NCBI GenBank assembly: GCA_029204225.1 | Contig: CM055094.1 | Coordinates: 30,809,427-30,873,426, forward strand | Direction: 5' to 3' | DNA from: Diphasiastrum complanatum | Taxonomy: Eukaryota > Streptophyta > Lycopodiopsida > Lycopodiales > Lycopodiaceae | Length of the DNA stretch: 64,000 nucleotides | In this document: piece after piece, positions 30,306 through 64,000 of the stretch | Numbering within the stretch: position 1 is the first letter of the stretch | How the letters are laid out: each line of letters begins with the position of its first letter | Made by a program: the position numbers and the translations under genes | The notes under the pieces: generated by a model | What the model was told of the DNA's origin: nothing | The model's input: only the letters and a program-made list of their open reading frames with translations | The model's database searches: none

Positions 30306-33045
30306 TTACATCCCAAGATTCTTCAAAGGAACTCCATCAAGTAGTAGTAATAACAAATCTAAAGTACCAATGCAATTAACTATGTTACTCAAGGTTGTCC
30401 AGAACTTAGCATCATGATATCAAATTGCCTCACATTTTACCTAGAGAAGCTCCAGATGTTCACTCTATTTATCTGGATCTTCTTTGATGTACAGAAATCT
30501 TCCATTTTGAAAAACTATTCTAAACATATGTTGTTACATGGATGATGGGAGCTGATGTGAATCTATAGTGTAATTTGATGGTGCAGTCATTAACTTACGT
30601 GCTAGGAGCCCTACCTGCTGTTAGCAATGTTGGGTTAAGACAATGTTTAAGGAAAGCTGGTTAGAGCTGACAGTAATTTACTGCCCCATTCGCTCTTAAC
30701 CTTTTTAAGATAATGACATGGTGCCCCATCAGCACTTGTTATCATCTTCCCATATTTTTTGGTTGTACACCATGATGATACTTGTACTTATGTTGACTTT
30801 GATGTCATGAAAAAGCAAAGGCCTGTGATTATATGGCTGGAAAGGGTCCTATGGAAATTAACTATAGTGTTTCGATCCTGATAAAAAGCACCAAAAAAAT
30901 ACTCTATTCAGGTAGTGCTTATTCAACCCCATTCACTAACTAAAAGTGGGGCAGCCACTTCCGTTAGTGAGGTGCCAACTGAGCCCTACTAATGGCAGTT
31001 GAGGAAGAGTTATAAAATCACCTCGTTTTACCTGCCTTGCCATGCTTTTCATAGTCATACATTGCTTTTTCAATTCAAATTTATACTTAGAACTAGCTAA
31101 GGGCCCAACTCTTTTATTAGAGACACTGGAGTACGAAACTTCTGGAAGGTGCAAACAGGTGCACTGCTTTCCCTGCTAAACTCTAGTTTAAAAAAAAGAT
31201 TGGCTAAATCTGTACAAGCTTTCATTTTAGTGGCATCTATTGGCTATAAATAGGTACTGCAGTCAGATTATTGATTTCGTATTATTTGAGCTCTTCATCA
31301 AGAGAACTCATTGCTATTGCTTGTAGAGCTTTAGCCATAGATCATATGTGTTGTGGTTCAGCCTTTTCTGGAGAGGAACGTTATTGTCTCTTCGTTCTAT
31401 GGTCTTGTATGCTTCATTCATAACAAAATCTATGGACTGTGTTCATAACTTGGTATCAGAGCACTTTTCTAAGCAATTGGAAAATTGTCAAATTCTTCTA
31501 ATTTTTCTCTCTCTAGATGCTTTCCCTTTGGTCGTTTCCTCTCTCCAGACCTACATTGACATTTTTTTGATTTAACTTTTTGGTTTGTGATCAAGGTTGT
31601 GAAGACAATAGTAGCCATGCGACACAAAAAGGGACATTGCAATAATATCGATAGAAAAGCCGCAAAATGGTAGTGCAAACGCAAAATCCCTCCAGATCAG
31701 ATTTTCATCGAAATCCAATTGTTGAGCATAATATCAAATAGAAAATAGCGTAAAAGCAAAGGAAAAGCACAATAATGTGATGCTCCATCATCACACTACC
31801 ACCTCTTCAAAATATATTATCATAACAACATCAAGATAATGAGAGGCATGTTGTTTGACTCTAATGAGACATGGAAATAATGCCAATGGGCTAATAATCT
31901 CCACTCTCTGATTTGCTCTACCACAGTATCTTTAACTAGAAGACATTAAACTTTTTCATCTTCAAAATCCTTCATCTTATTGCATGGTTTAAGGTACGAG
32001 ATTTTTCAGGTCAAAGCCTTCCATTCCTTTAAACAAATACGATTACAATTATATACCACAGAAATAAGATGCTTTTACATACCAGAGCAATTGATGGGTT
32101 GGTTACAAGTGAATCCTGCAACGCAAAAAGTTACAGAAACAACTGATCAACCAACAGTACAGGCTGCCCAGAATATATGGTTCCAATCACAATCAAAAGC
32201 CATCAACAGTTTGTAGGAAAACACAAAGTAAGCAAATGTTTCTTTGACTTCAGCAAAATTGTTATTCATTATCCAGACTATTCTCTTTATGCAGTCTGCC
32301 TTGTCTTAAGTAGTACTCATAAAATGAAGGAATTCCTTACTATACCACCCCAGTCTAGTAAAGTGATCAACTCCCCTGATTGGATGCACTTACAGAAGAA
32401 AGTCAGTCCCAAAGCAAAGCAGAGATTAAATTGAGAACGATTATCTGAAACAGAAAGAAAAAAATGTGTAGGGGTTCAACGTACCACATCATTCCAAAAT
32501 ATCCAATCGTAATTTGGCAGATATTTGCGAACAGCTATGATCTTGCTCCAGCTAGGAGGTCTTGCTCTATCCAAAAGATCACTGGCATCGATAAAATCAT
32601 ATCCATGTCTTTGTACATACCTTTTTTTATTTGGAGTTACAAGTTCAATGATCCCCTCAAATGATCTTTGAGGGATGGTACTTGCTCCATCTGAGCATGT
32701 AACCATCGCAAATTTAAACTGCTTTGCTGTTTGTTTGCTAGCTTGCATCAAGTCAGTACACTGTCTACCAAAGTCATTTGCGTGTATCAGAAGAATTTCT
32801 GATCCATATACTAAGAAGGAGCACAATAGTAGCAGGATAAGCACTGGTCTTACTGCAGGTTTAACAGAACCAAATGGTGAAGGACAACGATTTTGCTTTA
32901 TCTCAAAACTGCTCAGCCGGGTGCCTGCACAATCTTTCAAAACCTTTTTCTGGTCGGTCAATGGCCCTCCTACTCTTATAAAAACTTCTGATTCACTGAC
33001 TGCCACAAGCCTTCTTTGAGGGCAGACCCCTGACAACACTCCCAT
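22862..33045 (-). CDS. GT34-like (GMA12/MNN10) Golgi glycosyltransferase, five exons
   Basis: Minus-strand exons 32485-33045, 32083-32115 (33 nt), 24029-24119, 23320-23583 and 22862-23022, all with GT..AG introns, join in phase to 369 aa. GT34 enzymes add galactose, xylose or mannose from nucleotide sugars to glycans in the Golgi lumen. A cytosolic tail and one membrane span (VLILLLLCSFLVYG, about residues 68-81) indicate a type II protein. Then come FAMVTCSDG, ELVTPNKKRYVQRHGYDF, RPPSWSKIIAVRKYLPNYDW, and the metal/sugar-binding DxD (D186-V187-D188), split between exons 1 and 2. Later blocks are DFIVTEDVTGVNAG, SEDFLDIWWNQTSF, GDNDALKFLI and DFMVHLAG near the end. It appears intact. The chosen ATG (33045) is the first in a frame that is open further upstream without a Met, so the N-terminus is somewhat uncertain. 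It differs from the xyloglucan xylosyltransferase branch in its DxD surroundings; the acceptor is unknown. Confidence 0.88.
24898..25725 (+). pseudogene. Chromovirus gag relic
   Basis: Starts MDTQAGTSARLMRVEEVAAK with an N-terminal coiled coil. It continues through frameshifts with a gag core (TWEEFKHMFIENWVPLDEKN, FMEGLHEGLRPFIRNE) and a zinc knuckle near 25660-25690 (CFGCLGRHRWKEY, last Cys lost to Tyr). The reading jumps almost directly from the knuckle to RT at about 25760, so protease and the RT fingers have been deleted. Confidence 0.8.
25760..26165 (+). pseudogene. Chromovirus reverse transcriptase relic, catalytic site lost
   Basis: Gypsy RT palm and thumb: TRFGHYEFLVMPFGLTNAPT, LLRPFMGKFVVNFVDEILVY, then ITYLSFIVSADGIQQNPQKV and RSFLGL. 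The catalytic YxDD box reads FVDE, so one of its two aspartates is missing. Transcription direction is opposite to the host gene. RNase H is absent; integrase follows at once. Confidence 0.88.
26175..27330 (+). pseudogene. Chromovirus integrase relic split by a solo LTR
   Basis: HHCC-type zinc region (SAGHPSVDRTYKLI, then FWWPKLKKDVYHYVTHCLKC). The catalytic core follows in shifted frames (ILVIVDRLTKMAHFIPTHKK, HGLPSSIVSDRDTRFTRNF). The reading is interrupted at 26622-27061 by a solo LTR, then resumes (EHPKTDCQTERFNQTLEDML, YLPLLEFAYND). Several stops and frameshifts add to the damage. Confidence 0.85.
26622..27061. mobile_element. Solo LTR with 5-bp target duplication
   Basis: A 440-bp segment starting TGTTACCACC and ending CCCTAGCA, flanked by direct GTTAT copies (26617-26621 and 27062-27066). 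It splits the integrase relic at a point where its removal restores continuity. TG..CA ends with a 5-bp duplication and no internal region indicate recombination between two LTRs. The parent family is not otherwise present in the window. Confidence 0.88.
27710..27897 (+). pseudogene. Chromodomain-like C-terminus and polypurine tract of the chromovirus
   Basis: Frame-wise text RVLDRQERRLSNRLICQYLV followed by AWHGRPLFDATWE resembles the chromodomain at the end of chromovirus integrases, which targets insertion to chromatin. A purine run GAGGGGGGGAAGGGA (27883-27897) follows, then TGTTATAGC, the likely start of the 3' LTR at 27898. The LTR's far end is not identifiable. Confidence 0.7.
29080..29155 (+). 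mobile_element. LINE 3' tail, truncated upstream copy
   Basis: CTTATATGCCTTTTGGCATGG, then AAAAGACATTAATAAAGCT and (CT)n to 29155. The same tail recurs at 30195-30302, so this is the end of another, 5'-truncated member of the same family immediately upstream of the ORF1 unit. Confidence 0.65.
29192..29998 (+). pseudogene. LINE ORF1 (RNA-binding protein) relic
   Basis: A good start context (GCCGCCATGG) opens a 268-codon frame with in-frame TAG stops at 29441-29443 and 29663-29665 and a final TAG at 29996-29998. Domains: Pro/Thr-rich N-terminus, coiled coil (MESQLQKQSYNIIALQEKV), then an RRM-like and C-terminal block (VSFIRFKYTDYRDEVLKRRG, NNIFVHEDLTALQWMERKQL). This layout matches L1-type ORF1 proteins, which coat LINE RNA. 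No ORF2 follows: only about 190 bp separate the stop from the 3' tail. Confidence 0.75.
30187..30302 (+). mobile_element. LINE 3' tail with (TCT)n/(CT)n
   Basis: TCTTATACGCCTTTTGGCATG, then GAAAAGATGTTAATACAGC, followed by TCT and CT repeats to 30302. It closes the ORF1-bearing unit and matches the tail at 29080-29155. Confidence 0.7.
31236..31462 (+). mobile_element. LTR relic with TATA box and primer site
   Basis: CTATAAATAGG at about 31241 is followed 200 bp later by TGGTATCAGAGC at 31451-31462, a tRNA-Met primer site. This is the arrangement of the end of an LTR and the start of the internal region. No coding part is recognisable downstream; the LTR start is not defined. Confidence 0.55.
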
Positions 33046-34080
33046 TCTGCCAGGCTTCCTACGTGCAATCAAAAGGTCGATACCTGTGGTGTGAGCACTG
33101 TTAATGCAATGAATTCTTGTCGATAATTCAGTAAAAGAAAACCGTTTTCTCCTATAAAGCTGTTTTCCTGAAGACTGCTTCAGTAAATAGGAAAATTTTG
33201 ACAAGCTGGATCCCTTCGTTGTCTGAACTGCTTTAACGTAGACACGAGCTATTTTCTGCTGAAGATAGCTGCTTCTTGATTTTGTTTGCCGTTCAATAAG
33301 TTGCTCAAAGTATGGCCTCCTTTCATCACAATTGTCTGCCTTGCTTGACGTGTAGCTACAAATGGTGGCATGAAAAGAGCCACTTCCTTTTGTCTAAGAC
33401 GTCCAATGAATTATGTTCCACCAAAATAAAGAGAAATCAAGTCCAATGTATGGATGTCACAAACGAACTACCAGAAAGGTTCCATCCCTTTCACTCAATC
33501 TGTAGATCCTTAGACTGCCAGTGAAAACTTCAAGTCGACGATATTATTATACAAGCGTATTGAAGCCTGTAAAAGGACCAACGATTTGTCAAAGAAACAT
33601 TAACGGCCTGACAAGCATATATCTAAGAGCGTGCCTTTCTTTACTTCCGCTCAAAAGATTCTAGTTTGTGATGCCGAAGCTTACAATACCAAATAAAAAG
33701 AGTATCCAATATTTAGAACATATTCTGCATCATGTTAAAAGCAGGAATTTCAAACGAAAGCTAAGTACAACAATTAACGACCAAACCATTTTGTAAAAAA
33801 ATTAGGCGTGATTCACCTTTTCAAAAACTTAAGTTCTAATTTCTAAGAATCTCATTGCCATTCGAAATAAGATTCGCGTGCCATATGTGAATAAACTGAT
33901 CGTAGAAGTACTCTGTTACACAAATCACCAAATAACCTGCTATAAAATGGAAAACGATAATACGAGTTGGGAAAATCTGCTTATTACAATGCGATGGTTT
34001 CAGCAACCGAATTTCGCCTTGCATTAAGAGGTAATAAAATTATAAGGATGCAAGGATCGTTGTTAAAATACCTTCCATGT
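33046..34080 (-). other. Upstream region of the GT34-like gene
   Basis: The minus-strand frame of exon 1 stays open above the chosen ATG up to a stop near 33393 but contains no further Met, so most is probably 5' UTR. An acceptor-like CTTAG at that stop and the donors at 34082-35429 suggest a 5'-UTR intron. The exact splice is not decidable by eye. Confidence 0.4.
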
Positions 34081-37111: not shown

Positions 37112-38130
37112 TTTTTAACAGTTTTTTTATCAAACTATATTCATGCATGAAATTGTATTGATCAAATTACTGTAACACTTAATACCATGTTCTCAAACAT
37201 GTGCAATGACTTAGAAGATTTTTTCACAAAGGACATGCACACTAATGCTCAACATTACGACATCGATTTAGAACATTTCAAATTTTTTGCAAATTTTGAA
37301 CTAAAAATTGCCAAACTTTCAATGATCGTAACTTTGGCTATAGAGAACCAAATTAGACGTTGTAAAGCACAACAGAGGGAGCATAGGTTAGCAAGATGCT
37401 TTCCACATCACACTAGACCCTATAATCCACACATGCAAGTTGTTAGTGCCTAGATTTACTATAGGAAGTCACAATTTTTCAAGGAGCTTCTTGTGAAAAT
37501 ATGGCAAAAATCTAGCTTTGTCATTTTGCAATTCTTGTTTGTGAGAAAAACTCACACGTGTGGAGCATGTTTCCACGTGTGGAAAATAGAAAAAAATATC
37601 TTAGTTATGTTGAGTTAGGGGTACTCAAGTTTTTAGTAGAGATCTAGCCAAGTGTTTGATGTTGATTAGGCCATTTTTGGCATTAGAGGCAAAATAGGCA
37701 AGTACACATGGCAAGTTGTGATTAGGCCAGAAGTAGGTTGTGATATAGCTTGAGCCAAGTTAGGTTTGTGACATTTGTCAAGTTTAGGTTTGGTGTGTGA
37801 CATGTCTGCATGTGTTAGCATGAGAGTTAGTGACCAATCCAAAAGCTAGAATTATGAAAATGTTCCAATCACGATTAAGAGCTCATATGCCACTCAGCCA
37901 ATAGGATTTTGTGGAGGAAAAGAAGGGGTCCAATGATGCTTCACTCCCCTCTACCTCAATTAGATACATATAGGAGCATCAATCCATTTGTATTGGAAGT
38001 TTTTTGAGTTATGAGATTTCTACACTTTTTGAGTCTAACTGGTTTTCTCTCTCTACTTGAGTTTTCTTGATTGGAGTCTCTCTCTACCCGAGAGGAGGGC
38101 ATTTTCATACTTAGTTTGTGTTGTACAAGT

Positions 38131-38477
38131 TGTGAAAGATTCAACTAGTTTCATCACATTTTGCAATATTTCCATATTTGGCATATTAAGGCCAAAACTT
38201 GTTTTAGACTTAGAGGCTTGCAATTCTATGTGTAGAATGATCTATATTTGCTATTTCTGGATCCACACGTGTGAAATACAATAGCTTGCTGGTTTTGTAC
38301 GGACGACAACAGTACATAATCATTTCATTCAAGTTTGATCAAGTTCTATTAGTGTTTGCATCTCAAATTGTGTGTAGATGCTGAGTTTTCTACATTGGTG
38401 AAATTTGTAGTGTATTTCTCTTTCTAACCAAAGATCATTCAAGTAGATTGGATCTTAAGGATCTGAAATCTTTCACA
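38131..38477 (+). repeat. E1 5' LTR with 303-bp internal deletion
   Basis: 347 bp against 650 bp in the 3' LTR. The missing block corresponds to 43266-43568 and includes the TATA box (CTATAAAAGG at 43453-43462). The junction lies at 38216/38217. The primer site TGGTATCAGAAC follows at 38478-38489. Confidence 0.93.
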
Positions 38478-38489
38478 TGGTATCAGAAC
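38478..38489 (+). promoter_or_regulatory. E1 primer binding site (tRNA-Met)
   Basis: TGGTATCAGAAC immediately after the 5' LTR end. Confidence 0.9.
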
Positions 38490-39078
38490 TTGTGTTTCAG
38501 GTTATGAAGGAGAAAATCAGATCTATCAATGATTTGGTGAAGATATCAAGTCTAGAGCATGCTAGAGAGGATTCTACACCAAAATCGGATTTTTTTGCTT
38601 TTGTAGATTGGATATTTTGTAGATCAAAACACTAAATAGGTCAATATACTTGTTCAATTCCGTTTTTTGAATTCACATGCTGGATTTGGCCAATTTTTGG
38701 ATCATTGGTTCAGCCTAAGTGGTGGCTTATAGATTGCATATCAAATTTTCAGCATTTGCATGTAGATTTGGAATAGTCAATTTTTTGTGATTTTGTCAAA
38801 ACCCTAATTTTGATTGGATCTCTAGATAGTGAGGTTGCTGGACTTCATTTGAGTGTGTTTCAATCTTAGGAAGTGGCAAAAGTCATTAGATTGAGGATAG
38901 ATCATAGGTTGATCAAGATTCCATGATTCTATGTGTTGATTTGCTTGGATAAGTGCTAGAAGAGAATTTGTGAGATAGTTTCAAATCTTGGTGATTTCTT
39001 TTGAAAGCATTTGTTGTTGTTCAAAGGAGTGCTTTGTGCATTGAAACAGGTTGAAAGAGAAGATCAGGTCATTGCTAC

Positions 39079-41501
39079 ATGGCAACCTCAATTGGAGTCA
39101 TGTTGGAAGCCAATGATAGGCTTACCTCAAGTAACTATTCATTATGGAAAGTGAGGATGGAGTCACTTATTGAGATGAATGATGTTTTGGATATTGTTGT
39201 AGTTTGGAGGAGAGACCAGCAACACAACAAGATCAATTGAGGTATGACAAGAGGGCAAAGAAGGCTCTACACATGATAGAGATGAATGTTACCAATGAAC
39301 TTCTCAAGGAAGTTGGTAAGTGCACATCATCTTTGGAAGCTTGGAATTCATTGAAGAAGCTTTATGAATCCAAGTCTACTTCTAGAGTGTTGACTCTAAG
39401 AAGGCAAATCTTTTCTTGTTTGCAAAAGAATGAAGAGAGTCCAAGTACTTTTATTTTGAGAATGAAAGCATTGAATGATGAGTTAGCTTGCATAGATGAA
39501 AGCATTAAGGAAGGAGAGCTTATTCAAGTGATTCTTAATGGCTTGTTGGATGCTCATGCTAACATTGTTCAAAGTATTGCTATTCAAAAGACTTTGCCAA
39601 GTTTGATGGATCTTCAAGAGATCTTGATCAATGAGGAATATAGGCTTCAAGCAAGAGGTGGATCTACATCGACACTTCAAGACGATGCTATGTTCACAAA
39701 GGGCAAATTCAAGGGCAAAACCAAAAGCAAGTGGTCTAAAGGGCAAGATCAAGTGGATGCTTCTTCAAGTGGCAAAAAGAAGGATAGATCAAAGCTCAAG
39801 TGCTTCTATTGTGGCATCAAAGGACACTTTGCAAGTGAGTGCTACAAGAAGAAGAGAGATCAAGGAGACGAGCAAGGTAATCTTAGTCTTGATGAGGATG
39901 GTTTGGATGTGCAAGATGCAAATGATGATGCTTTTGTGATGTCTTCATGTATGCTTGCTAATGATGGAGATCTAGATCCTTGGTGGATTGATAGTGGAGC
40001 AAGTTCACACATGACCTTTCACAAAGAGTACTTCACTTCTTTGTTGGCATATGGAGATGACAACAGGGTGATCTACACGGCCAATGATGGTGAGTGTGCA
40101 ATCAAAGGGATTGGCACAATTCCTATTTCTCTCTCTACAAATAGGAATGTTCATTTGGAGGATGTCTTGTCTATTCCATCTATTACCAAGAATTTGCTTA
40201 GTGTGAGTCAAATGCTAAGTAAGGGCCTCAAGGTGGAGTTTGATGGAGATGCTTGTTTGATCAAAAGGAAGGATGTCTTGATTGGAAAAGGTAAAAGGCA
40301 AGGGAAGTTGTTCAAACTTGATGCTTGTGTTATTGCTAACCAAGTTGGATGTGTTGCAAGGGAGCAAATTTCTATTCAAGAGGTTTGGCACAAAAGGATG
40401 GGACACCTCAACTTCAAGTCATTGGAGGTAATGGCAAGGAAGAAGGTTGTGATTGGTCTTCCAAGTTCCTTAAGTAATGACAAGCATATTTGTGAGTCTT
40501 GTGATTTGCCTAAGTCACATAGACTACCTTATACTAGATCTACAAAGCCTTTTCAACTTGTACATTCGGATATTCATGGATTTACTACAATTAGCAATAG
40601 TGGAGCTAAGATGTATGTAACATTCATTGATGATTTTAGTAGATTTTGTTGGATCTATCTACTAAAGAGCAAGGATGAAGTGTATGATGTCTCTGTCAAG
40701 TTCAAGAATGCAAGGGAGAACCAATTCTCCACAAAGATCAAGTGCTTGAGAGGTGACAATGGTGGTGAGTACATATCTAACAAGTTCAAGGCCTTTTGTG
40801 ATGAGCATGGGATCAAGAGGGAGTATACAACATCAAGGACCCCACAACAAAATGGAGTGGCTGAAAGGAAGAATAGGACTTTATGTGAAAGTGCTAAAGC
40901 TATGAGGTTAAGTGCTAATCTTGACAAACCATTTTGGGATCAAGCTTTGTTGTGTGCCAATTTCTTATGCAATAGGTGGTCGAGTGCTATTTTGGATGGA
41001 AGGACACCTTTTGAGATGCTATTCAAGAGGAGGCCAAGTGTCAAATTTCTAAGAACCTTTGGATGCACATGCTATGTCAACATTACTCTTGATGATAGGA
41101 CCAAGGAGGATCCATCTTCAAGAAGAGGTATTTTTGTTGGATATAGTGAGGTGAGTAAAGCCTACAAGGTTTACATTCCTTCTACTAACAAAGTGATTGT
41201 TGGTAGAGATGTCATTTTTGATGAGGGAAACATTCCAAAGGTGTCTTCAAGCTTGATTGATGGTAAAGTAGATGGTTCTAACATTCTTGATGTTGATGAG
41301 AAGGATCCTACTTTGGATGGTGGTGATGATGGACCTTCATCAAGTCAAAAGCCAAGGAGAACATCAAGAGAAAGACAAGTACCTTCAAGGCTCACATATG
41401 ATCAAAAGGGTAAGCAAGTAGTTTCTGGAAATTATGTTGCTTTCCTAACCTCTTTGGATGATCCTACAAGTGTAGATCAAGCAAGGAAAGAAGAGGAGTG
41501 A
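39079..41501 (+). pseudogene. E1 Copia gag-protease-integrase
   Basis: Gag begins at the ATG 39079 (NDRLTSSNYSLWKVRMESL). One base is missing near 39200, shown by comparison with the E2 copy; the rest of gag continues in the frame entered at 39204. Numbering that frame from 39204: CCHC knuckle C200-C203-H208-C213, protease WWIDSGASSH with catalytic D263, integrase zinc region from H396 to the CESC motif, and catalytic D456, D518, E554 (DD35E), followed by NGVAERKNRT and the GKG-poor Copia tail. Domain order is Copia-like (integrase before RT). A 20-bp deletion at about 41500, relative to E2, ends the frame at 41501 just before region X. The catalytic residues themselves are intact. Confidence 0.93.
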
Positions 41502-41520
41502 GTATCAATCTCTTATGAAG

Positions 41521-42600
41521 AGTGGAACATCTTTTGGAGGATCTTCTTGTGTACATGGAGCTATGCAAGTGGATGGACGTTATCTTGCTGTAAAATCAAG
41601 TAATGGATCTGGAAAACAAAGTTTGTTCAATGACTTTGATGGTCAAGTTGAAGATCAAGAGGTTGATCTCAAAGCGCTTCAACTAGTCAAAAGGGAAGTT
41701 GGCAATTTGGAGCTACTCAAGAGCATCAAAGGAGAGGTAATTGGCAAAGGTGTTATGGATCTGTTTTTGTAGCATATTGAAGACTCAAGTAAGGTCAAAG
41801 GAGCAGCAAGGAAGTGTTGTTCAAGTTTACTTTACTTGTTCTATCTCATGTTTGAGCAATTTCATGTGGATGTGTGCAAATTGTCAAGATATGGTAAAAC
41901 TAGCTACATTGGTGAGCATTGTTTTGATGTTGGATTTGTACTAGCATTCTTGGATGATTTTGCTGATGGAAATGAAGCTATTGGAGGTCCATTATGTCAC
42001 TCATCCATGCCTAAGTTCTCAAGTGTTGAGCTACTTGGTGCCAATACTTGGAGATTGTCAATTTTTGGTGAATTCATGGTCATTTTCTTGTGTCAAGTAG
42101 ATCTTGAAGATGGACTAGTGCAAACTACTTGGTTTATGGAGTCATGTGGTGCTGGATTTGCATCATTTATGTCCTCACCTACTCATGGATTTCCAAGGTT
42201 TGATGGTTTCTTGTGGCAAGATGAAGATGGAGGCTCATTCATGGAGTATCATGGTGGATACAAGGCAACAAAGGACAAAGAAGGAGGAGACATGCAAGCA
42301 AAAGTTGATCACTCACATTTATTGTTTGTTTGCTGTATTTTTCTAGAGAGTTCAGAGTTGAAAGCATGGTGGAATCATTTCATTTACATTCTATTTGATT
42401 CTTCATGTTCTAGTCACATTTTTACATGTAAAATTGATGTAAGAAATAGTGAAGCATCCCAAGTGGACACTATTCTCTATATCAATTATGGTTGTTTCTA
42501 TTTTGAGCATTACACGATCATTGAAAGGAGATCTATTCTTAGGAGGAAGATCATTCTTATGATGGATCAAAGTTCTATTGGCAAAAACTATGCTAGGAAC
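41521..42600 (+). pseudogene. Region X: unrelated insert replacing Copia reverse transcriptase
   Basis: In Copia elements the text after EYQALMKNGT should continue into RT. Here it turns into a sequence without any RT motif (GTSFGGSSCVHGAMQVDG, VKREVGNLELLKSIKGEV, FEQFHVDVCKLSRYGKTSYI, KIDVRNSEASQVDTILYINY), and RNase H resumes near 42600. The reading is open except for one TAG at 41770 (CAG in E2) and ends at a TAG at 42610. The same sequence occupies the same place in E2 (61009-61866), but E1 has 222 bp more (41989-42213). I recognise no family; a captured host gene piece is the simplest idea. Confidence 0.8.
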
Positions 42601-43184
42601 ATTGGAAGCTAGGAAAGCGAGTTTTGAGGTACATCATTGGAACTCGAGATTTTGGCATATTGTATGAGGGATCATCACCTAATCTTTTTGGATTTTCAGA
42701 TTCGGACTATGCTGGAGATGTAATGGATAGAAAATCCATTAGTTCTTATTGTATTTTCATAGGTGATGGAGCTATATCATGGATGTCAAAGAAACAAGCC
42801 ACTATCTCATTGTCATCTAGTGAGGCCGAGTACAAAGCTCTTACACATTGCACAAAGGAGATGGTATGGATCAAGAGGATGATCAAGGATCTTCACTTGC
42901 TGGATTTTTCAGAGAGCCCAATCATCTTTTGTGACAATCAATCAGCCCAAAGAATGGCATCCAATCCTATCTTTCATGCTAGGAGCAAGCATATTGAGAT
43001 ACAATATCATTTTGTGAGGGAGCGAGTCATTGCAAAGGAGGTGGAGCTTCAACATGTGTCTTCAAGGGAATGTGTAGCTGATATCTTCACCAAAGCATTG
43101 GGAAAAGACTTGTTCATGATGCATAGGACTTCACTTGGAGTATTATCAAAGTCTATGCTAAAACTAGTTGAAGAGGGAGTGTGA
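42600..43184 (+). pseudogene. E1 Copia RNase H
   Basis: RNase H removes template RNA during cDNA synthesis. The frame runs RYIIGTRDFGILYEGSS, FSDSDYAGDVMDRKSISSYC, SLSSSEAEYKALTHCTKEMV, FCDNQSAQRMASNPIFHARS, SSRECVADIFTKALGKDLF, and ends at the stop at 43182-43184. The catalytic D (SDSDYAG), E (SSEAEY) and D (CDNQSA) are present. It is out of frame with region X, so in E1 it cannot be made as part of the upstream polyprotein. Confidence 0.9.
43167..43179 (+). promoter_or_regulatory. E1 polypurine tract
   Basis: GTTGAAGAGGGAG directly before the 3' LTR start TGTGAAAG; the primer site for plus-strand DNA. Confidence 0.8.
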
Positions 43185-43829
43185 AAGATTCAACTAGTTT
43201 CATCACATTTTGCAATATTTCCATATTTGGCATATTAAGGCCAAAACTTGTTTTAGACTTAGAGGTTGACTTTTCAAAGTTCATTAGTCTAAATTTCATC
43301 TGAATAAACACTTTTTGAAAGTGTGGGAAAGATAGAATGCGAGTTTGAGTAGATTCAATTTGAATAAGTTGGGTACATTGAATCTAGACCCAAAATTGGT
43401 AGGGTTAGCATTTTGGTGGGAAAGCCAAGTGGCCAAATAGGGTTTGGGCCTGCTATAAAAGGATGTAACTCGTGGAGAGAGTCATCTTCTCTCTTCTCTA
43501 TCTCATTTCATGCTTATACATGGTTCTCTTGGGTTCTACTATCCATTGGTGCACTATCTTGGTGATTGCTTGCAATTCTATGTGTAGAATGATCTATATT
43601 TGCTATTTTTGGATCCACACGTGTGAAATACAGTATCTTGCTGGTTTTGTACGGACAAAAACAGTACATAATCATTTCATTCAAGTTTGATCAAGTTCTA
43701 TTAGTGTTTGCATCTCAAATTGTGTGTAGATGCTGATTTTTCTACATTGGTGAAATTGGTAGTGTATTTCTCTTTCTAACCAAAGATCATTCAAGTAGAT
43801 TGGATCTTAAGGATCTGAAATCTTTCACA
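43180..43829 (+). repeat. E1 3' LTR, full length
   Basis: 650 bp, TGTGAAAGAT...ATCTTTCACA. Contains the TATA box CTATAAAAGG at 43453-43462. Same family and length as the LTRs at 57493-58142 and 62062-62711. Confidence 0.95.
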
Positions 43830-43834
43830 CAAGT

Positions 43835-44699: not shown

Positions 44700-46021
44700 G
44701 ATCCATTATTGAGGGAGAAGCAACACCTTTGGATCCATTACAAGTGAATTTCTCAAGGGAAGATGACTTCCTTAGGTTTGCATCAAGAGATCCAAGAGGT
44801 CCAAAAGTACAAAAAGAGGGCTAGGATGGCCTTACATAAAGATCAATGTTTCCAATGAAGTGTTGAGGGAAATTGGCTCATGTACCACATCCAAGGAGGC
44901 TTGGGACACATCGAAATCCATCCATGAGGTGAATGATGGAGAGGCGAAATCATACTTCACAAAGGACAAGCCAAGGGAAGGGGCAAAGAGCATCATCAAC
45001 ATTTCAAGAAGGACAATTCAAAGGAGGAGAGTGATGAGGAGTCAGCACAAACATTAACAAGTTGCAAATCCAGCAAGAAGTGCTTCTTTTGTGGTAAGAA
45101 GGGGCATTCTCCTTCTAATTATTTCAAAAATAAAGCGTTCAAGAGAGATGGTGATGTGGTAGCAAGTGGGGCTAGATGTGGTAATCTTTTCAAAATTGAT
45201 GCTAATCTTGGAAGTGTGGCCAATAGGAGTTTGGATCATCTCAAGGAGGAGAAGGCAAGTGATCTACCTCAACCTATGTTCCAAGATGGTAAGACTCATG
45301 AAGGTGGTGCTTTGGCAAAAGCACATGGAGAGTTATTTCCAAGGAGGTCTACTTCTCATCAATTCCCTTATCTTGTTCATTTGGATGATTTAATTTCATC
45401 ATATAGAAGCAAAGATGGTGCTATTTTATGTGACTTGTTACTTGAAGACTTCAAATTGGAGGTATCTCTTATCAAAGGTGCTTGATATGAAGATTGCAAT
45501 AGTTGATACTTTGGGGATCTTTAGATCAATAATATGCCTTGTTGAAATGCCTTTGCATATAAGGAGTAAGAAGGATCTCATTTTAATCAAGAGGATGATG
45601 GTGGAATCCACAAATCTACCAAAAATCCAAGTGCATGATGGAGATATGCCAAGGCTTGAGGAGGAGGCTTCTCAACCCCGGTTGCAAGGAGATCTTCAAG
45701 AGGCAAGGCCGAGTCTTTGTGATCACAATACATGGCAAAGAGGGGCAGTTTTCAGGTGGTATCTACTCCAACATTCTCACTTATGCTTCTCTTCCATTAT
45801 TTGATGTACCATCTTGCCTTTATGAGATTTCTACATCTCAAAGTTGGAGTAAGGCAATACTAGTCTTGTATGATGCCTTTTGTATGGACATATTTCTTGT
45901 CTCTAATGGCTTAGATATGTTTCCAAAACATTTTGAAACCAATGATTATGTGTCTAGTCTTTGTCCTGAAAGTCTAGTTTTAAGATTTTCAAATTTGGAT
46001 CAATGGAATATTGTCATTTGA
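44700..46021 (+). pseudogene. Older Copia-like gag relic with non-pol continuation
   Basis: Gag-like text (VSNEVLREIGSCTTSKEAWD near 44850) and a zinc knuckle at about 45081-45125 (CFFCGKKGHSPSNY, last Cys lost to Tyr), followed by FKNKAFKRDG. The downstream open stretches to 46021 (NLFKIDANLGSVANRSLDHL, then IHGKEGQFSGGIYSN) show no protease, integrase or RT. As in E1/E2, gag is followed by unrecognised sequence, though here integrase is missing too. Confidence 0.5.
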
Positions 46022-53515: not shown

Positions 53516-55832
<2,317 letters not shown>

Positions 55833-56750: not shown

Positions 56751-57480
56751 CTGATCTCTCCTCCAAGCCTACAACAATATCCAAAACATCATTCATCTCA
56801 AGAAGTGACTCCATCCTCACTTTCCACGATGAATAGTTACTTGAGGTAAGCCTATCATTGCTTCCAACATGACTCCAATTGAGGTTGCCATGTAGCAATG
56901 ACCTGATCTTCTCTTTCAACCTGCTTCAATTCACAAAGCACTCCTTTGAACAACAACAAATACTTTCAAAAGAAATCACCAAGATTTGAAACTATCTCAC
57001 AAATTCTCTTCTAGCACTTATCCAAGCAAATCAACACATAGAATTATGGAATCTTGATCAACCTATGATCTATCCTCAATCCAATGACTTTTGCCACTTC
57101 CTAAGATTGAAACACACTCAAATGAAGACCAGCAACCTCACTATCTAGAGATCCAATCAAAATTAGGGTTTTGACAAAATCACAAAAAAATTGACTATTC
57201 CAAATCTACATGCAAATACTGAAAATTTGATATGCAATCTATAAGCCACCACTTAGGCTGAACCAATGATCCAAAAATCGGCCAAATCCAGTATGTGAAT
57301 TCAAAAATCGGAATTGAACAAGTATATTGACCTATTTAGTGTTTTGATCTACAAAATATCCAATCTACAAAAGCAAAAAATCCGATTTTGGTGTAGAATC
57401 CTCTCTAGCATGCTCTAGACTTGATATCTTCACCAAATCATTGATAGATCTGATTTCCTCCTTCATAACCTGAAACACAA
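56751..57480 (-). pseudogene. E2 leader and gag N-terminus, inverted
   Basis: On the minus strand, leader sequence matching E1 38490-39078 is followed by the gag start. One base is missing just after the first codons (within the NDRL region). Similarity to E1 stops at 56751, at gag codon position matching E1 about 39216. The remainder of gag is found in plus orientation from 58683. Confidence 0.88.
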
Positions 57481-57492
57481 GCTCTGATACCA
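57481..57492 (-). promoter_or_regulatory. E2 primer binding site, inverted
   Basis: The minus strand reads TGGTATCAGAGC next to the LTR end. Confidence 0.9.
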
Positions 57493-58142
57493 TGTGAAAG
57501 ATTTCAGATCCTTAAGATCCAATCTACTTGAATGATCTTTGGTTAGAAAGAGAAATACACTACCAATCCCACCAATGTAGAAAAATCAGCATCTACACAC
57601 AATTTGAGATGCAAACACTAATAGAACTTGATCAAACTTGAATGAAATAATTATGTACTGTTGCTGTCTATACAAAACCAGCAAGCTACTGTATTTCACA
57701 CGTGTGGATCCAAAAATAGCAAATATAGATCATTCTACACATAGAATTGCAAGCAATCACCAAGATAGTGCACCAATGGATAGTAGAACCCAAGAGAACC
57801 ATGTATAAGCATGAAATGAGATAGAGAAGAGAGAAGATGACTCTCTCCACGAGTTACATCCTTTTATAGCAGGTCCAAGCCCTATTTGGCCACTTGGCTT
57901 TCCCACCAAAATGCGAACCCTACCAATTTTGGGTCTAGATTCAATGTACCCAACTTATTCAAATTGAATCTACTCAAACTCGCATTCTATCTTTCCCACA
58001 CTTTCAAAAAGTGTTTATTCAAATGAAATTTAGACTAATGAACTTTGAAAAGTCAACCTCTAAGTCTAAAACAAGTTTTGGCCTGAATATGCCAAATATG
58101 GAAATATTGCAAAATGTGATGAAACTAGTTGAATCTTTCACA
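57493..58142 (-). repeat. E2 5' LTR, inverted
   Basis: 650 bp with the same ends as the other family LTRs; TATA box CTATAAAAGG read on the minus strand near 57866. It is flanked outside by ATGCC (58143-58147), the inverse of the GGCAT that follows the 3' LTR. Confidence 0.95.
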
Positions 58143-58681
58143 ATGCCCATGAGAAAAAGAGATTGCGGATTCATTTCAATGAGCAATGTAGTAATGTGAT
58201 GTCTTGTCCAACTGTCACTCAAAAATTGAGACACTTAGAGGGTGATAGGTCTTTGGTTAACCCTTACCGAAAGCCTCAGAGATTAATCAATAAGTTGATT
58301 GATATGTTTTCAAATGAGGATGATTGGATTTTGGGCATGTTTGCAGGAACATGTATGAAGATGTGTTTCTTTGCCTAAAATTAGTTCTTATAATTGATTA
58401 TTAACTTTCGCATTTAATTTTGTTCTTAAAAATTACTTATTCTTTTATATACTTCTACATGTAGGTACTACCACTTGTTGTGCCCTTCAGAAAAACAGGA
58501 ATTGCGTAGCTGTTGAAGTGGATGAAGTCTAGGCAACCTATATTGAGATGAGAGTGGCTTCTATTCGAGAACTTCCAGATGAAGATCAGGAAGCTGGGGC
58601 TCGAGCAGTCGACAATAGTGAGAGGTTCCAAAGTGCCTCATCCGAACCGGTTCTCCCATTACTAAACAAAGAAGGGGAGCT
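58143..58681 (+). pseudogene. Methyltransferase-like gene, catalytic motifs X and I (inverted segment)
   Basis: Beta-class DNA amino-methyltransferases transfer a methyl group from S-adenosylmethionine to N4-cytosine or N6-adenine. Exon 58143-58352 reads RLRIHFNEQCSNVMSC, then EGDRSLVNPYRKPQRLINKL (motif X, KP) and IDMFSNEDDWILGMFAGT (motif I). Intron 58353-58464 (GTATGA..TGTAG, 112 bp). Exon from 58465 continues TTTCCALQKNRNCVAVEVDE, then YIEMRVASIRELPDEDQEAG. Motif I reads FAGTC instead of the usual FxGxG, and a TAG lies in exon 2 after VDEV, so it is inactive. The order X then I is that of the beta class; motif IV (S/D-PP-W/Y) is not in the window. The segment was inverted together with the E2 5' half. 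Confidence 0.75.
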
Positions 58682-58682
58682 A

Positions 58683-60725
58683 CACAACAAGATCAATTGA
58701 GGTATGACAAGGGGGCCAAGAAGGCTCTACACATGATAAAGATGAATGTTACCAATGAACATCTCAAGGAAGTTGGTAAGTGCACATCATCTTTGAAAGC
58801 TTGGAATTCATTGAAGAAGCTTTATGAATCCAAGTCTACTTCTAGAGTGTTGACTCTAAGAAGGCAAATCTTTTCTTGTTTGCAAAAGAATGAAGAAAGT
58901 CCAAGTACTTTTGTTTTGAGAATGAAAGCATTGAATGATGAGTTAGCTTGCATAGATGAAAGCATTAAGGAAGGAGAGCTTATTCAAGTGATTCTTAATG
59001 GCTTGTTGGATGCTCATGCTAACATTGTTCAAAGTATTGCTATTCAAAAGACTTTGCCAAGTTTGATGGATCTTCAAGAGATCTTGATCAATGAGGAATA
59101 TAGGCTTCAAGCAAGAGGTGGATCTACATCGACACTTCAAGAGGATGCTATGTTCACAAAGGGCAAATTCAAGGGCAAAACCAAAAGCAAGTGGTATAAA
59201 GGGCAAGATCAAGTGGATGCTTCTTCAAGTGGCAAAAAGAAGGATAGATCAAAACTCAAGTGCTTCTATTGTGGCATCAAAGGACACTTTGCAAGTGAGT
59301 GCTACAAGAAGAAGAGAGATCAAGGAGACAAGCAAGGTAATGTTACTCTTGATGAGGATGGTTTGGATGTTCAAGATGCAAATGATGATGATTTTGTGAT
59401 GTCTTCATGTATGCTTGCTAATGATGGAGATCTAGATCCTTGGTGGATTGATAGTGGAGCAAGTTCACACATGACCTTTCACAAAGAGTACTTCACTTCT
59501 TTGTTGGCAAATGGAGATGACAACAGGGTGATCTACATGGCCAATGATGGTGAGTGTGCAATCAAAGGGATTGCCACAATTCCTATTTCTCTCTCTACAA
59601 ATAGGAATGTTCATTTGGAGGATGTCTTGTTTATTCCATCTATTACCAAGAATTTGCTTAGTGTGAGTCAAATGCTAAGTAAGGGCCTCAAGGTGGAGTC
59701 TGATGGAGATGCTTGTTTGATCAAAAGGAAGGATGTCTTGACTGGAAAAGGTAAAAGACAAGGGAAGTTGTTCAAACTTGATGCTTGTGTTATTGCTAAC
59801 CAAGTTGGATGTGTTGCAAGGAAGCAAATTTCTATTCAAGAGGTTTGGCACAAAAGGATGGGACACGTCAACTTCAAGTCATTGGAGGTAATGGCAAGGA
59901 AGAAGGTTGTGATTGGTCTTCCAAGTTCCTTAAGTAATGACAAGCATGTTTGTGAGTCTTGTGCTTTGTCTAACTCACATAGACTACCTTATACTAGATC
60001 TATTTCTAGATCTACAAAGCCTTTTCAACTTGTACATTCGGATATTCATGGATTTATTACAATTAGCAATAGTGGAGCTAAAATGTATGTAACATTCATT
60101 GATGATTTTAGTAGATTTTGTTGGATCTATCTACTAAAGAGCAAAGATGAAGTGTATGATCTCTTTGTCAAGCTCAAGAATGCAAGGGAGAACCAATTTT
60201 CCACAAAGATCACGTGCTTGAGAGGTGACAATGGTGGTGAGTACATATCTGACAAGTTCAAGCCTTTTTGTGATGAGCATGGGATCAAGAGGAAGTATAC
60301 AACATCAAGGACCCACAACAAAATGGAGTGGCTGAAAGGAAGAATAGGACTTTATGTGAAAGTGCTAAAGCTATGAGGTTAAGTGCTAATCTTGACAAAC
60401 CATTTTGGGATCAAGCTTTGTTGTGTGCCAATTTCTTGTGCAATAGGTGGCCGAGTGCTATTTTGGATGGAAGGACACCTTTTGAGATACTATTCAAGAG
60501 GAGGCTGAGTGTCAACTTTCTAAGAACCTTTGGATGCACATGCTATGTCAACATTACTCTTGATGATAGGACCAAGGAGGATCCATCTTCAAGAAGAGGT
60601 ATTTTTGTTGGATATATTGACATGAGTAAAGCCTACAAGGTTTACATTCCTTCTACTAACAAAGTGATTGTTGGTAGAGATGTCATTTTTGATGAGGGGA
60701 ACATTCCAAAGTGTCTTCAAGCATG
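58683..60725 (+). pseudogene. E2 Copia gag-protease-integrase
   Basis: Same domains as E1: CCHC knuckle CFYCGIKGHFASEC, protease WWIDSGASSH, integrase zinc region and core with DD-E residues. Two single-base deletions relative to E1 break the frame: near 60312, just before NGVAERKNRT, and near 60709. It also carries the extra residues SISR before STKPFQLVHSD that E1 lacks. Gag codons before 58683 are in the inverted segment. Confidence 0.92.
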
Positions 60726-62066
60726 ATTGATGGTAAAGTAGATGGATCTAACATTCTTGATATTGATGAGAAGGATCCTACTTTGGATGGTGGTGATGAT
60801 GGACCTTCATCAAGTCAAAAGCCGAGGAGAACATCAAGAGAAAGACAAGTACCTTCAAGGCTCACATATGATCAAAAGGGTAAGCAAGTAGTTTCTGGAG
60901 ATTATGTTGCTTTCCTAACCTCTTTGGATGAGCCTACAAGTGTAGATCAAGCAAGGAAAGAAGAGGAGTGGATCCAAGCAATGGATCTCGAGTATCAAGC
61001 TCTTATGAAGAATGGAACATCTTTTGGAGGATCTTCTCGTGTACATGAAGCTATGCAAGTGGATGGATGTTATCTTGCTGTAAAATCAAGTATTGGATCT
61101 GGAAAACAGAGTTTGTTCAGTGACTTTGATGATCAAGTTGATGATCAAGAGGTTGATCTCAAAACGCTTCAACTAGTTAAAAGGGAAGTTGGCAATTTGG
61201 AGCTAGTCAAGAGCATCAAAGGAGAGGTAATTGGCAAAGATGTTATGGATCTATTTTTGCAGCATATTGAAGACTCAAGTAAGGTCAAAGGAGCAGCAAG
61301 GAAGTGTTTTTCAAGTTTACTTTACTTGTTCTATCTCATGTTTGAGCAATTTCATGTGGATGTGTGCAAATTGTCAAGATATGGTAAAACTAGCTACATT
61401 GGTGAACATTGTTTTGATGTTGGATTTGTACTAGCATTCTTGGCTGGTTTTGCTGATGGAAATGAAGCTATTGGAGGTTCATGGCAAGATGGAGATGGAA
61501 GCTCATTCATGGAGTATCATGGTGGATACAAGGCAACAAAGGACAAAGGAGGAGGAGACATGCAAGCAAAAGTTGATCACTCACATTTATTGTTTGTTTG
61601 CTGTATTTTTCCAGGGAGTTCAGAGTTGGAAGCATGGTGGAATCATTTCATTTACATTCTAATTGATTCTTCATGTTCTAGTCACATTTTTACATGTAAA
61701 ATTGATGTAAGAAATAGTGAAGCATCCCAAGTGGACACTATTCTCTATATCAATTATGGTTGTTTCTATTTTAAGCATTATATGATCATTGAAAGAAGGT
61801 CTATTCTCAGGAAGAAGATCATTCTTATGATCAATCAAAGTTCTATTGTCAAAAACTATGCTAGGAGCAAGCATATTGAGATACAATATCATTTTGTGAG
61901 GGAGCGAGTCATTGCAAAGGAGGTGGAGCTTCAACATGTGTCTTCAAGGGAATGTGTAACTGATATCTTCACCAAAGCATTGGGAAAAGACTTGTTCATG
62001 AAGCATAGGACTTCACTTGGAGTATTATCAAAGTCTATGCTAAAACTAGTTGAAGAGGGAGTGTGA
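60726..62066 (+). pseudogene. E2 integrase tail, region X and RNase H C-terminus in one frame
   Basis: Uninterrupted frame: the integrase/RT linker (EEEWIQAMDLEYQALMKNGT), then region X (about 61009-61866: QVDDQEVDLKTLQLVKREVG, FEQFHVDVCKLSRYGKTSYI, YHGGYKATKDKGGG, KIDVRNSEASQVDTILYINY), then the end of RNase H (KHIEIQYHFVRERVIAKEVE, DIFTKALGKDLF). A 386-bp deletion between two ATGCTAGGA copies (E1 42590 and 42976) removed most of RNase H and put X and the RNase H tail into one frame. No RT motif is present. Confidence 0.85.
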
Positions 62067-62711
62067 AAGATTCAACTAGTTTCATCACATTTTGCAATAT
62101 TTTCATATTTGGCATATTGAGGCCAAAACTTGCTTTAGACTTAGAGGTTGACTTTTCAAAGTTCATTAGTCTAAATCTCATTTGAGTAGACACTTTTTGA
62201 AAGTGTGGGAAAGATAGAATGCGAGTTTGAGTAGATTCAATTTGAATAAGTTGGGTACATTGAATCTAGACCCAAAATTGGTAGGGTTAGCATTTTGGTG
62301 GGAAAGCCAAGTGGCCAAATAGGGTTTGGACCTGTTATAAAAGGATGTAACTCATGGAGAGAGTCATCTTCTCTCTTCTCTATCTCATTTCATGCTTATA
62401 CATGGTTCTCTTGGATTCTACTATCCATTGGTGCACTATCTTGGTGATTGCTTGCAATTGTATGTGTAGAATGATCTATATTTGCTATTTTTGAATCCAC
62501 ACGTGTGAAATACAGTAGCTTGCTGGTTTTGTACGGACAACAACAGTACATAATCATTTCATTCAAGTTTGATCAAGTTCTGTTAGTGTTTGCATCTCAA
62601 ATTGTGTGTAGATGCTGATTTTTCTACATTGGTGAGATTGGTAGTGTATTTCTCTTTCTAACCAAAGATCATTCAAGTAGATTGGATCTTAAGGATCTGA
62701 AATCTTTCACA
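62062..62711 (+). repeat. E2 3' LTR
   Basis: 650 bp; preceded by the polypurine tract ending AAGAGGGAG at 62061; TATA box TTATAAAAGG near 62335; followed by GGCAT. Confidence 0.95.
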
Positions 62712-62962
62712 GGCATCATAGTACCCCATGGTCATCATTTCGAAAGAACTGATTAGCTGACAACCCAGTGCACGCTCAAGATTTGTTTTGTTCTTGCATA
62801 TATAATCGGATCCAAAAGACAAGTGAAGGTTTTATAATATTCGGACATCGGTGCGAGGGAATCTTTTAACTGAATCCTCATTCGTTCTTCCTTAGCCCTC
62901 TGTATATGCGACAAAAAGTTTGAAAGGCAATCCAAGTCCTCTCATGCCTTTGCCTTCTTATG
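62712..62962 (-). pseudogene. Methyltransferase-like gene, exon interrupted by E2
   Basis: Minus-strand exon starting after an acceptor (TTTTATAG) at 62962: KKAKA, a TGA, EDLDCLSNFLSHIQRAKEER, then MSEYYKTFTCLLDP. A probable one-base loss leads to NLERALGCQLISSFEMMTMG and on to the target duplication at 62712-62716. From there the reading continues in frame at 58148 in the inverted segment. The first part is helical and charged, a possible coiled coil. This continuity across E2 shows that E2 landed inside an exon. Confidence 0.7.
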
Positions 62963-63194: not shown

Positions 63195-63283
63195 CTGCAT
63201 AAATACCGTGATTAGAGAAAAAAATAATTAATGTGAGAGGTAAGCAATAGAAACTCGATGACATGCATCGACATGGTGTAACT

Positions 63284-63357
63284 AACTCGATGCAGTGCAT
63301 CGAGTTGGTGTGTTGGTAGACCAATTGGTACACCAACTCGATGCACTGCATCGAGTT
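63284..63357. repeat. Perfect 28-bp inverted repeat with palindromic arms
   Basis: Arm 1 (63284-63311) and arm 2 (63330-63357) are exact inverses around an 18-bp spacer. Each arm also contains ACTCGATGCA/TGCATCGAGT, nearly self-complementary. Two weaker variants flank it (near 63254 and 63366). Confidence 0.93.
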
Positions 63358-63408
63358 GGTCCACCACTCGATGCTCTGGAAATCATGTATGTTCATTAAT
63401 TGGCACAG

Positions 63409-64000
63409 ATGCTGAATGGCGAGGATTGCTTCCGGCTATTTTATATGTTCAGTTGGACACCACAACAAGAGAGAATAAGAATCAAATGGTCTTCGGTTAT
63501 TTGAATATGCTTGTGGAGAAGGGCATTTTCAGAAAAGTAAAGGTTAATTTTCTATTGGTTGGACACACACACGATCATATAGATCAAATGTTCAGCACTT
63601 TCTCTAAAAAGTTGTCGCGGCGAGATGTATTTACGCTTGTCCATCATAGAGGAAGCCTACACTCCTAAGCCAAGCATATTTCATCTCAAAGAGACCATTG
63701 ACTTCAAGGAGTTTGTGAAGTCCTCAAGAGAACTATGTTTGAAAAAGTTAAATGACATTAGCTATCAGCACTGCTTTCTTATAAAAAAAATATGGAAAAT
63801 AAGGTTGTGTTAATGTATGGGAAACAATTGTCAACATGTAAACAATGGCCTCCAACAGATGGTTTGAAATTCTTGATACATGTACCAGTTGCTCTGATGA
63901 AGTCCGCAAAGCAGATGCCTATGTTATTAGCCAAAGAAGTTAAAGATGCTGAAAAACAAACAAGACCTATTGATTATCGAAAGTGCATAGAAGAGCATAA
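63409..64000 (+). pseudogene. DUF7869-like protein relic, open at window edge
   Basis: After an acceptor-like CACAG at 63408 the text reads LLPAILYVQLDTTTRENKNQ, VFGYLNMLVEKGIF, VNFLLVGHTHDHIDQMFSTF. The pattern LYVQLD..x..ENKN..VFGYL and VGHTH..ID.MFS is that of the DUF7869 domain, often found in large multidomain transposon-like plant and protist proteins. A frameshift near 63635 leads to IIEEAYTPKPSIFHLKETID, and another near 63790 to a frame open to 64000 (VPVALMKSAKQM). It diverges from the methyltransferase-like gene, with the inverted repeat between them. Confidence 0.65.

Follow-up and report, generated by a model that had tools for sequence, protein, structure and literature searches.

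A high-copy Copia family of Diphasiastrum complanatum without reverse transcriptase and the probable element origin of its replacement sequence

Introduction

How a Copia element without a reverse transcriptase (RT) of its own becomes a family, and where the sequence in place of the RT came from, are the questions raised by a window of 64,000 nucleotides from the genome of the clubmoss Diphasiastrum complanatum (G000:C3:30809427-30873426; "the window" denotes this whole stretch). An earlier note on this DNA had described two elements, E1 and E2, with Copia gag, protease (PR), and integrase (INT), in which a region X takes the place of RT, and had implied that X was captured from a single host locus. 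Based on comparisons with further genomic copies, with RT-bearing relatives, and with a second RT-deficient Copia family (YX), we consider it very probable that E1 and E2 represent a high-copy RT-deficient Copia recombinant family with a sibling-like backbone, in which RT was replaced by YX-homologous X through template switching, with mobilisation in trans and X as a passenger.

Results

Structure of E1 and E2

E1 spans positions 38131-43829 and revealed LTR ends of the TG..CA type (Table 1). Both elements displayed the hallmarks of Ty1/Copia, i.e., matching LTRs, 5-bp target site duplications (TSDs), a primer binding site (PBS), and a polypurine tract (PPT), as described before. Pfam analysis of the E1 frame 39183-41501 revealed domains for gag, a zinc knuckle, a PR-like barrel, pre-integrase, rve, and SH3, while gag-PR-INT of E2 was identified via its match of 96% to E1 at the nucleotide level and its ORFs; the integrase DDE residues were seen by eye only. 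In both elements the Copia coding text is abandoned after LMK(N/S)GT, so that the common departure point claimed by the earlier note was found again.

Judged by eye, the frame of E1 gag-PR-INT is interrupted near its 5' end; it is also broken by a 20-bp loss just before X, which occurs in the duplicate L009 as well (see below). Neither E2 nor any of the 18 other copies whose junction could be read directly has lost these bases. X of E1 contains a single internal stop (41770-41772), its frame ends at 42610-42612 at the RNase H junction, and in copies other than E1 X is in phase with INT. The E1 RNase H ORF gave no Pfam match and was identified through 81 blastx matches to retrieved Copia polyproteins; at the nucleotide level it was 90-98% identical to RNase H of the RT-bearing relatives L040, L041, and L042. 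The resumption of RNase H in E1 was thus upheld, though not in the frame of X. Likewise, the region first given as 41521-42600 is real with slightly different best limits, and the replacement is common to both elements, E2 being without about 220 bp of X.

E2 harbors one open frame (60696-62066, 456 aa) running from the INT end through X into the RNase H tail. One of its TSD copies is reverse-complemented because the 5' LTR, the leader, the gag start, and about 535 bp of flank were later inverted, the position of the inverted GGCAT indicating that this flank moved along. E1 and E2 differed at 36 of 840 sites in X (4.3%) and at 93 of 3851 sites elsewhere (2.4%); the higher divergence in X fits an E2 region from another sub-lineage, which is about 3.5% or more away from every fetched copy.

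Outside of these elements, the window showed a long GA/CT simple repeat (53518-53802), an ORF at 63282-63668 (+), which we take to resemble a DUF7869-like element protein, and an ORF at 32476-33393 (-), presumably resembling a GT34-type glycosyltransferase.

Table 1. Position of E1 and E2 features in the window
Feature	Position	Strand	Remark
E1 target duplication CAAGT, left	38126..38130	.	read directly
E1 5' LTR	38131..38477	+	about 302 bp of the 3' LTR missing from it
E1 PBS and leader	38478..39078	+	PBS TGGTATCAGA at 38478
E1 gag-PR-INT	39079..41496	+	Pfam; open frame 39183-41501
E1 region X	41527..42599	+	X found in 20/20 fetched copies
Scrap of pol (RNase H) tail, 3' end of E1 X	42576..42595	+	16/20 bases like 43141-43160
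E1 RNase H	42600..43179	+	open; frame differs from X
E1 3' LTR	43180..43829	+	PPT immediately upstream
E1 target duplication CAAGT, right	43830..43834	.	
E2 start of gag and leader, inverted	56751..57492	-	
E2 5' LTR, inverted	57493..58142	-	
E2 target duplication GGCAT	58143..58147	-	inverted along with the 5' end
E2 gag-PR-INT	58678..60980	+	frame interrupted near 60310 and 60713, as judged by eye
E2 region X	61017..61865	+	about 220 bp shorter than in E1
E2 RNase H tail	61866..62061	+	sole RNase H part kept by E2
E2 3' LTR	62062..62711	+	followed by GGCAT at 62712-62716

Coding character of region X

No Pfam family matched X. A profile built from 68 retrieved Copia RTs, which detected the control set of retrieved polyproteins (including those 68) with E-values down to 2e-117, resulted in noise only for the six frames of X (E 0.40-0.84) and reached a best E of 0.51 over the whole window, in line with the statement that X is without RT. 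Nevertheless, X has an open frame beyond chance: in E2 it comprises 283 codons, compared to 144 for the longest frame in 2000 dinucleotide shuffles, with no stop in its own frame versus 9 and 27 in the other two. In copy L019, a single frame of 1190 aa extends from gag through the end of X; this coding capacity sets it apart from TRIM and LARD elements, which by definition have none.

Protein searches with X resulted in one match only, the D. complanatum protein P0001, which is an element copy from the same genome and ends in the pol tail LVEEGV. The E2 frame gave 14 matches, all of them to residues 363-454, essentially the RNase H tail. The best hits of a PDB sequence search had E-values of 0.77 for X and 4.3 for YX, no relative of X was detected in the viral and prokaryote contigs searched, and AlphaFold2 returned no usable model of X (mean pLDDT 31.7). 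During these searches, a gene model of Adiantum nelumboides (P0016) was also seen in which three Copia integrase modules lie in tandem and no RT was matched.

E1-type copies in the genome

A search of the genome with X gave 3430 first-look candidates, and the 40 that were scored all reached at least 98%. From these 40 places, 20 copies were fetched; since they had been chosen for their resemblance to X of E1, counts of intactness among them are biased. X was located directly before RNase H at the same point in 20/20, and INT directly before X in direct order in 19/20, L012 being locally inverted. Perfect 5-bp TSDs were read for 11 of 13 further copies (L009 left out), those of L011 and L019 being imperfect; as L016 and L022 are one duplicated insertion, this corresponds to 10 of 12 insertions. 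LTR distances in ten of those copies ranged between 0.016 and 0.033. The copies with identical junctions that the earlier note had proposed to count were therefore present, and its view of a chimera mobilised as a family was borne out by these junctions and TSDs. E1-type elements thus harbor gag-PR-INT and RNase H, with X in place of RT in the gag-PR-INT-RT-RH order, and are non-autonomous, being without RT yet known from several independent insertions.

Some individual copies showed peculiarities. L009 on an unplaced contig (G000:C732) is a near-identical duplicate of E1 including deletion and TSD, and probably represents an alternative haplotype that was retained in the assembly. L016 and L022 have the TSD TCCGT in common, are fused internally at the same point (LTR position 369 joined to gag position 307), and lie 0.36 Mb apart on C7. 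In L017 and L026, each with a frame of 592 aa, E1-like INT is limited to the last 525 bp, possibly indicating a further chimera.

RT-bearing siblings

A genome search with the RNase H from a related element next to L020 gave 4028 candidates; the 40 that were scored reached 88-90%, the query itself excepted. Upstream pieces of four of those 40 were fetched; all four contained RT or an RT end, and two of them revealed an INT end 83-85% like that of E1 and the motif MKN(G/E)TW at the place expected for the start of X. When at most two mismatches were allowed, the INT/RT junction pattern occurred 2739 times (1337 + 1402) in the genome, compared to 4 times (2 + 2) for the reversed control; this count may take in E2-type X junctions, which differ at two positions, while the 100 places listed have zero mismatch.

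Of four loci cut out, L043-L045 were older (INT 86-92%), while the identity of L042 to E1 reached 97.3% for PR-INT, 98.4% for RNase H, and 97.2% for the 3' LTR. In this element, an RT segment of 295 aa including YVDD occupies exactly the place of X, directly between MKNGT and the HWK of RNase H, giving the order INT-RT-RH, and no stop was found over the 995 aa read, which excluded gag and the 5' end. A relative with RT at the site of X, whose existence the earlier note had suggested to check, was hence identified. In L042/L047, read on the 3' side in this respect, RNase H is contiguous to the LTR start, and LTR and PPT are common to E1. The backbone of E1 (LTR, PR-INT, RNase H) was thus shown to be about 97% identical to that of an RT-bearing sibling, whose RT segment X replaces.

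The YX family

In L029, an older element adjoining L013, X (86% at the nucleotide level) is preceded not by INT but by a block Y, with a pol tail directly after it. A search of the genome with Y gave 4567 candidates (40 scored), and L037, L038, and L039 displayed the layout LTR-leader-gag-PR-Y-X-pol tail-LTR. These elements are without the INT core and most of RNase H; in L037, blast detection of the RNase H tail starts only at CTATGC. Y still contains remnants of pol, namely pieces of integrase and a degenerate RT palm that is about 90 aa long and has no YVDD (hhalign probability 47%, E 1.9e-4; mean z of 4.4 and 3.5 against RTs in shuffled alignments), though a general pol profile missed it (E 9, below shuffles). 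L037 revealed 811 open codons in one frame through the PR end, Y, and X, with a maximum of 179 in 1000 shuffles, and L039 an open stretch of 859 codons leading from gag to the first part of X. Partial LTR distances of L037-L039 (0.018-0.025) lie within the E1-type range, and L036 was near-identical to one of the four YX copies read. X is thus homologous, as judged from these comparisons, to the 3' part of the YX coding region, so that a source in a second RT-deficient Copia family is more probable than the implied capture from a single host locus.

Four YX copies, 93% identical to L029, were also seen inside 0.75 Mb on C10 (G000:C10:9401266-10149189). A third Copia-like remnant in the window, E3 (44760-46021, +), contains gag pieces, a zinc knuckle, and GNLFKIDA, with coding-like sequence of unknown kind behind them; its layout resembles that of the YX family, while no similarity to X or Y was found.

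Origin of the chimera

Between E1-type and YX elements, gag-PR revealed a dS of 0.51-0.54 (dN/dS 0.33-0.39) and the LTRs were only 78-83% identical, whereas dS in X was 0.07-0.11; a single history does not account for both. The direction is indicated by the common frame of X and Y and by the end of E1's X, where the 20 bases 42576-42595 resemble the pol tail of the element; the next best match in X has 12 identical bases and upstream similarity drops at once (1/10), while four plus-strand places in the window reach the level of 16/20. In L029, L037, L038, and L039, the same stretch runs directly into the PPT. Since this scrap at the end of E1's X is continuous with the PPT in YX, X most likely came from a YX-like element. 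The 5' joint lies in ACAT(G), which is common to RT-bearing and YX sequences, with microhomology of 4-5 bases; at the 3' joint none was established. As E1's X is 12-14% distant from the four YX copies read, the actual donor is not among them.

The swap was probably made by template switching while co-packaged RNAs were reverse-transcribed, a mechanism proposed for wheat elements (PMC1950507). Minus-strand synthesis would have started on an RT-bearing RNA, passed into X of a YX RNA, and returned at the INT end. An identical mosaic could also have resulted from DNA recombination or gene conversion. The resulting chimera is predicted to make a Gag-PR-INT-X polyprotein, while RT, and probably also RNase H since it is out of frame, would be provided by RT-bearing siblings with common LTR and PPT; supply of RT in trans naturally suggests itself from the sequences.

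A different course of events, in which an RT-bearing element took X straight from a host gene by Bs1-like transduction and YX obtained it from an E1-type element, would agree with the open gene-like frame and its single database match, and also with the documented capture of host genes by LTR elements (PMC13317346, PMC7264820). We regard it as improbable, because X and Y are read in one frame in L037, because a pol-tail scrap forms the end of E1's X, and because P0001 is itself a copy of an element with a pol tail. Moreover, no host gene for X and no intron-bearing or single-locus match was found in length-limited protein searches and among the 40 scored of the 3430 genome candidates, a depth at which a host locus could be hidden. 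While X was probably not captured directly, the YX family's own sequence could be of host origin. Somewhat less credible still is an RT that decayed in place past recognition. It would explain the weak alignment between a piece near the 3' end of X and the RT connection in RT-bearing relatives (nhmmer E 0.06, compared to E 4 for the best of 200 shuffles), the INT C-terminal scrap that YX keeps immediately upstream of X and across its beginning (E 6e-11), and the extension of a few RNase H tail matches in blastp into the last part of X (P0097, starting at residue 286, 29%), in addition to the degenerate palm in Y. However, the body of X gave no RT signal by profile, by hhalign (E 0.3), or in shuffled alignments with 20 RTs (mean z -0.4 local, 0.3 global), while Y did so by hhalign and in such alignments. 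A degenerate RT in X is therefore unsupported by profile, profile-profile, and shuffled-alignment comparisons, the weak 3' match remaining.

That E1 and E2 are merely duplicates of one locus might be suspected from their distance of about 19 kb and their identity of 96-98%. With different TSDs (CAAGT and GGCAT), no flank similarity in the self-comparison of the window, an X more diverged than the rest, and many copies on other contigs, this probability is practically negligible; the segmental duplication that would have overturned the earlier note's separate insertions is contradicted by TSDs and flanks, and these insertions stand.

Selection on X

Variants were collected from 19 copies and E2 with E1 as reference and were called shared if present in two or more copies. 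Shared variants resulted in a pN/pS of 0.47 for gag-PR-INT (27 silent, 49 replacement, 0 stop), 1.36 for X (6 silent, 32 replacement, 1 stop), and 0.80 for RNase H (5 silent, 15 replacement, 1 stop); X differed from gag (p 0.03), RNase H did not (p 0.44). For private variants, the values were 0.75, 1.28, and 1.42, respectively, with no significant difference between shared and private ones in gag-PR-INT, X, or RNase H (p 0.11, 1.0, and 0.50). Between E1-type and YX elements, dN/dS of X was 1.25-1.75; within YX, three comparisons with L037 gave 0.50-0.60 for Y and 0.70-1.08 for X, and gag of L039 compared to three YX copies 0.35-0.58. Hence, neither purifying selection nor amino-acid constraint on X is visible in these comparisons, though its frame stays open.

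As the simplest reading, X is most likely a passenger and not an enzyme, and diversifying selection may act on it. It is conceivable, though rather unlikely, that YX encodes a new accessory protein composed of INT and RT relics and an orphan domain, with X as a transferable, fast-changing module grafted in RT's place for an advantage of its carrier, be it packaging, helper interference, or evasion of host silencing.

Discussion

E1-type elements can be compared with several described retrotransposons. The closest cases, which they resemble in their way of working, are RLG_Quinta/RLG_Cereba and the RLG_Sabrina variants. RLG_Quinta of wheat is non-autonomous, encodes GAG and a domain of unknown function (DUF1) without RT and INT, and has LTR ends and PBS in common with its autonomous partner RLG_Cereba, sequence exchange by template switching having been proposed for the two (PMC11302176). 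While these are Gypsy elements, E1-type elements belong to Copia, keep INT and RNase H sequence with RT alone missing, and reveal in their mosaic the joining point of the unknown module. In wheat, RLG_Sabrina/WHAM/Wilma and non-autonomous RLC_Angela are high-copy elements with a coding block replaced by unrelated coding sequence (PMC9744471). In RLG_Sabrina, the replaced block is GAG-Pro, whereas E1-type elements exchanged RT alone for an open frame; the reading frame of non-autonomous RLC_Angela is degenerate, unlike that of X. BARE-2 also lost one function presumably complemented by a sibling, but there GAG is disrupted, while in E1-type elements RT is replaced and not broken (PMC9744471). 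Maize Bs1 is likewise an LTR element with foreign coding sequence, but it carries identified host gene fragments, while X, for which no host source was found, also sits in another element family (PMC13317346, PMC7264820).

No description of the E1-type family was found in the literature searched, which mostly did not cover subscription papers. E1-type elements are a variant of known semi-autonomous retrotransposons, new in that RT alone is missing and that the donor family is traceable. Altogether, an RT-bearing relative, a donor-like family, and a probably trans-mobilised chimera coexist at high copy in one clubmoss genome, so that the order of events becomes testable. This opens the questions of how a parasite of a parasite comes about and whether elements carry an orphan reading frame for its function or just because it is present.
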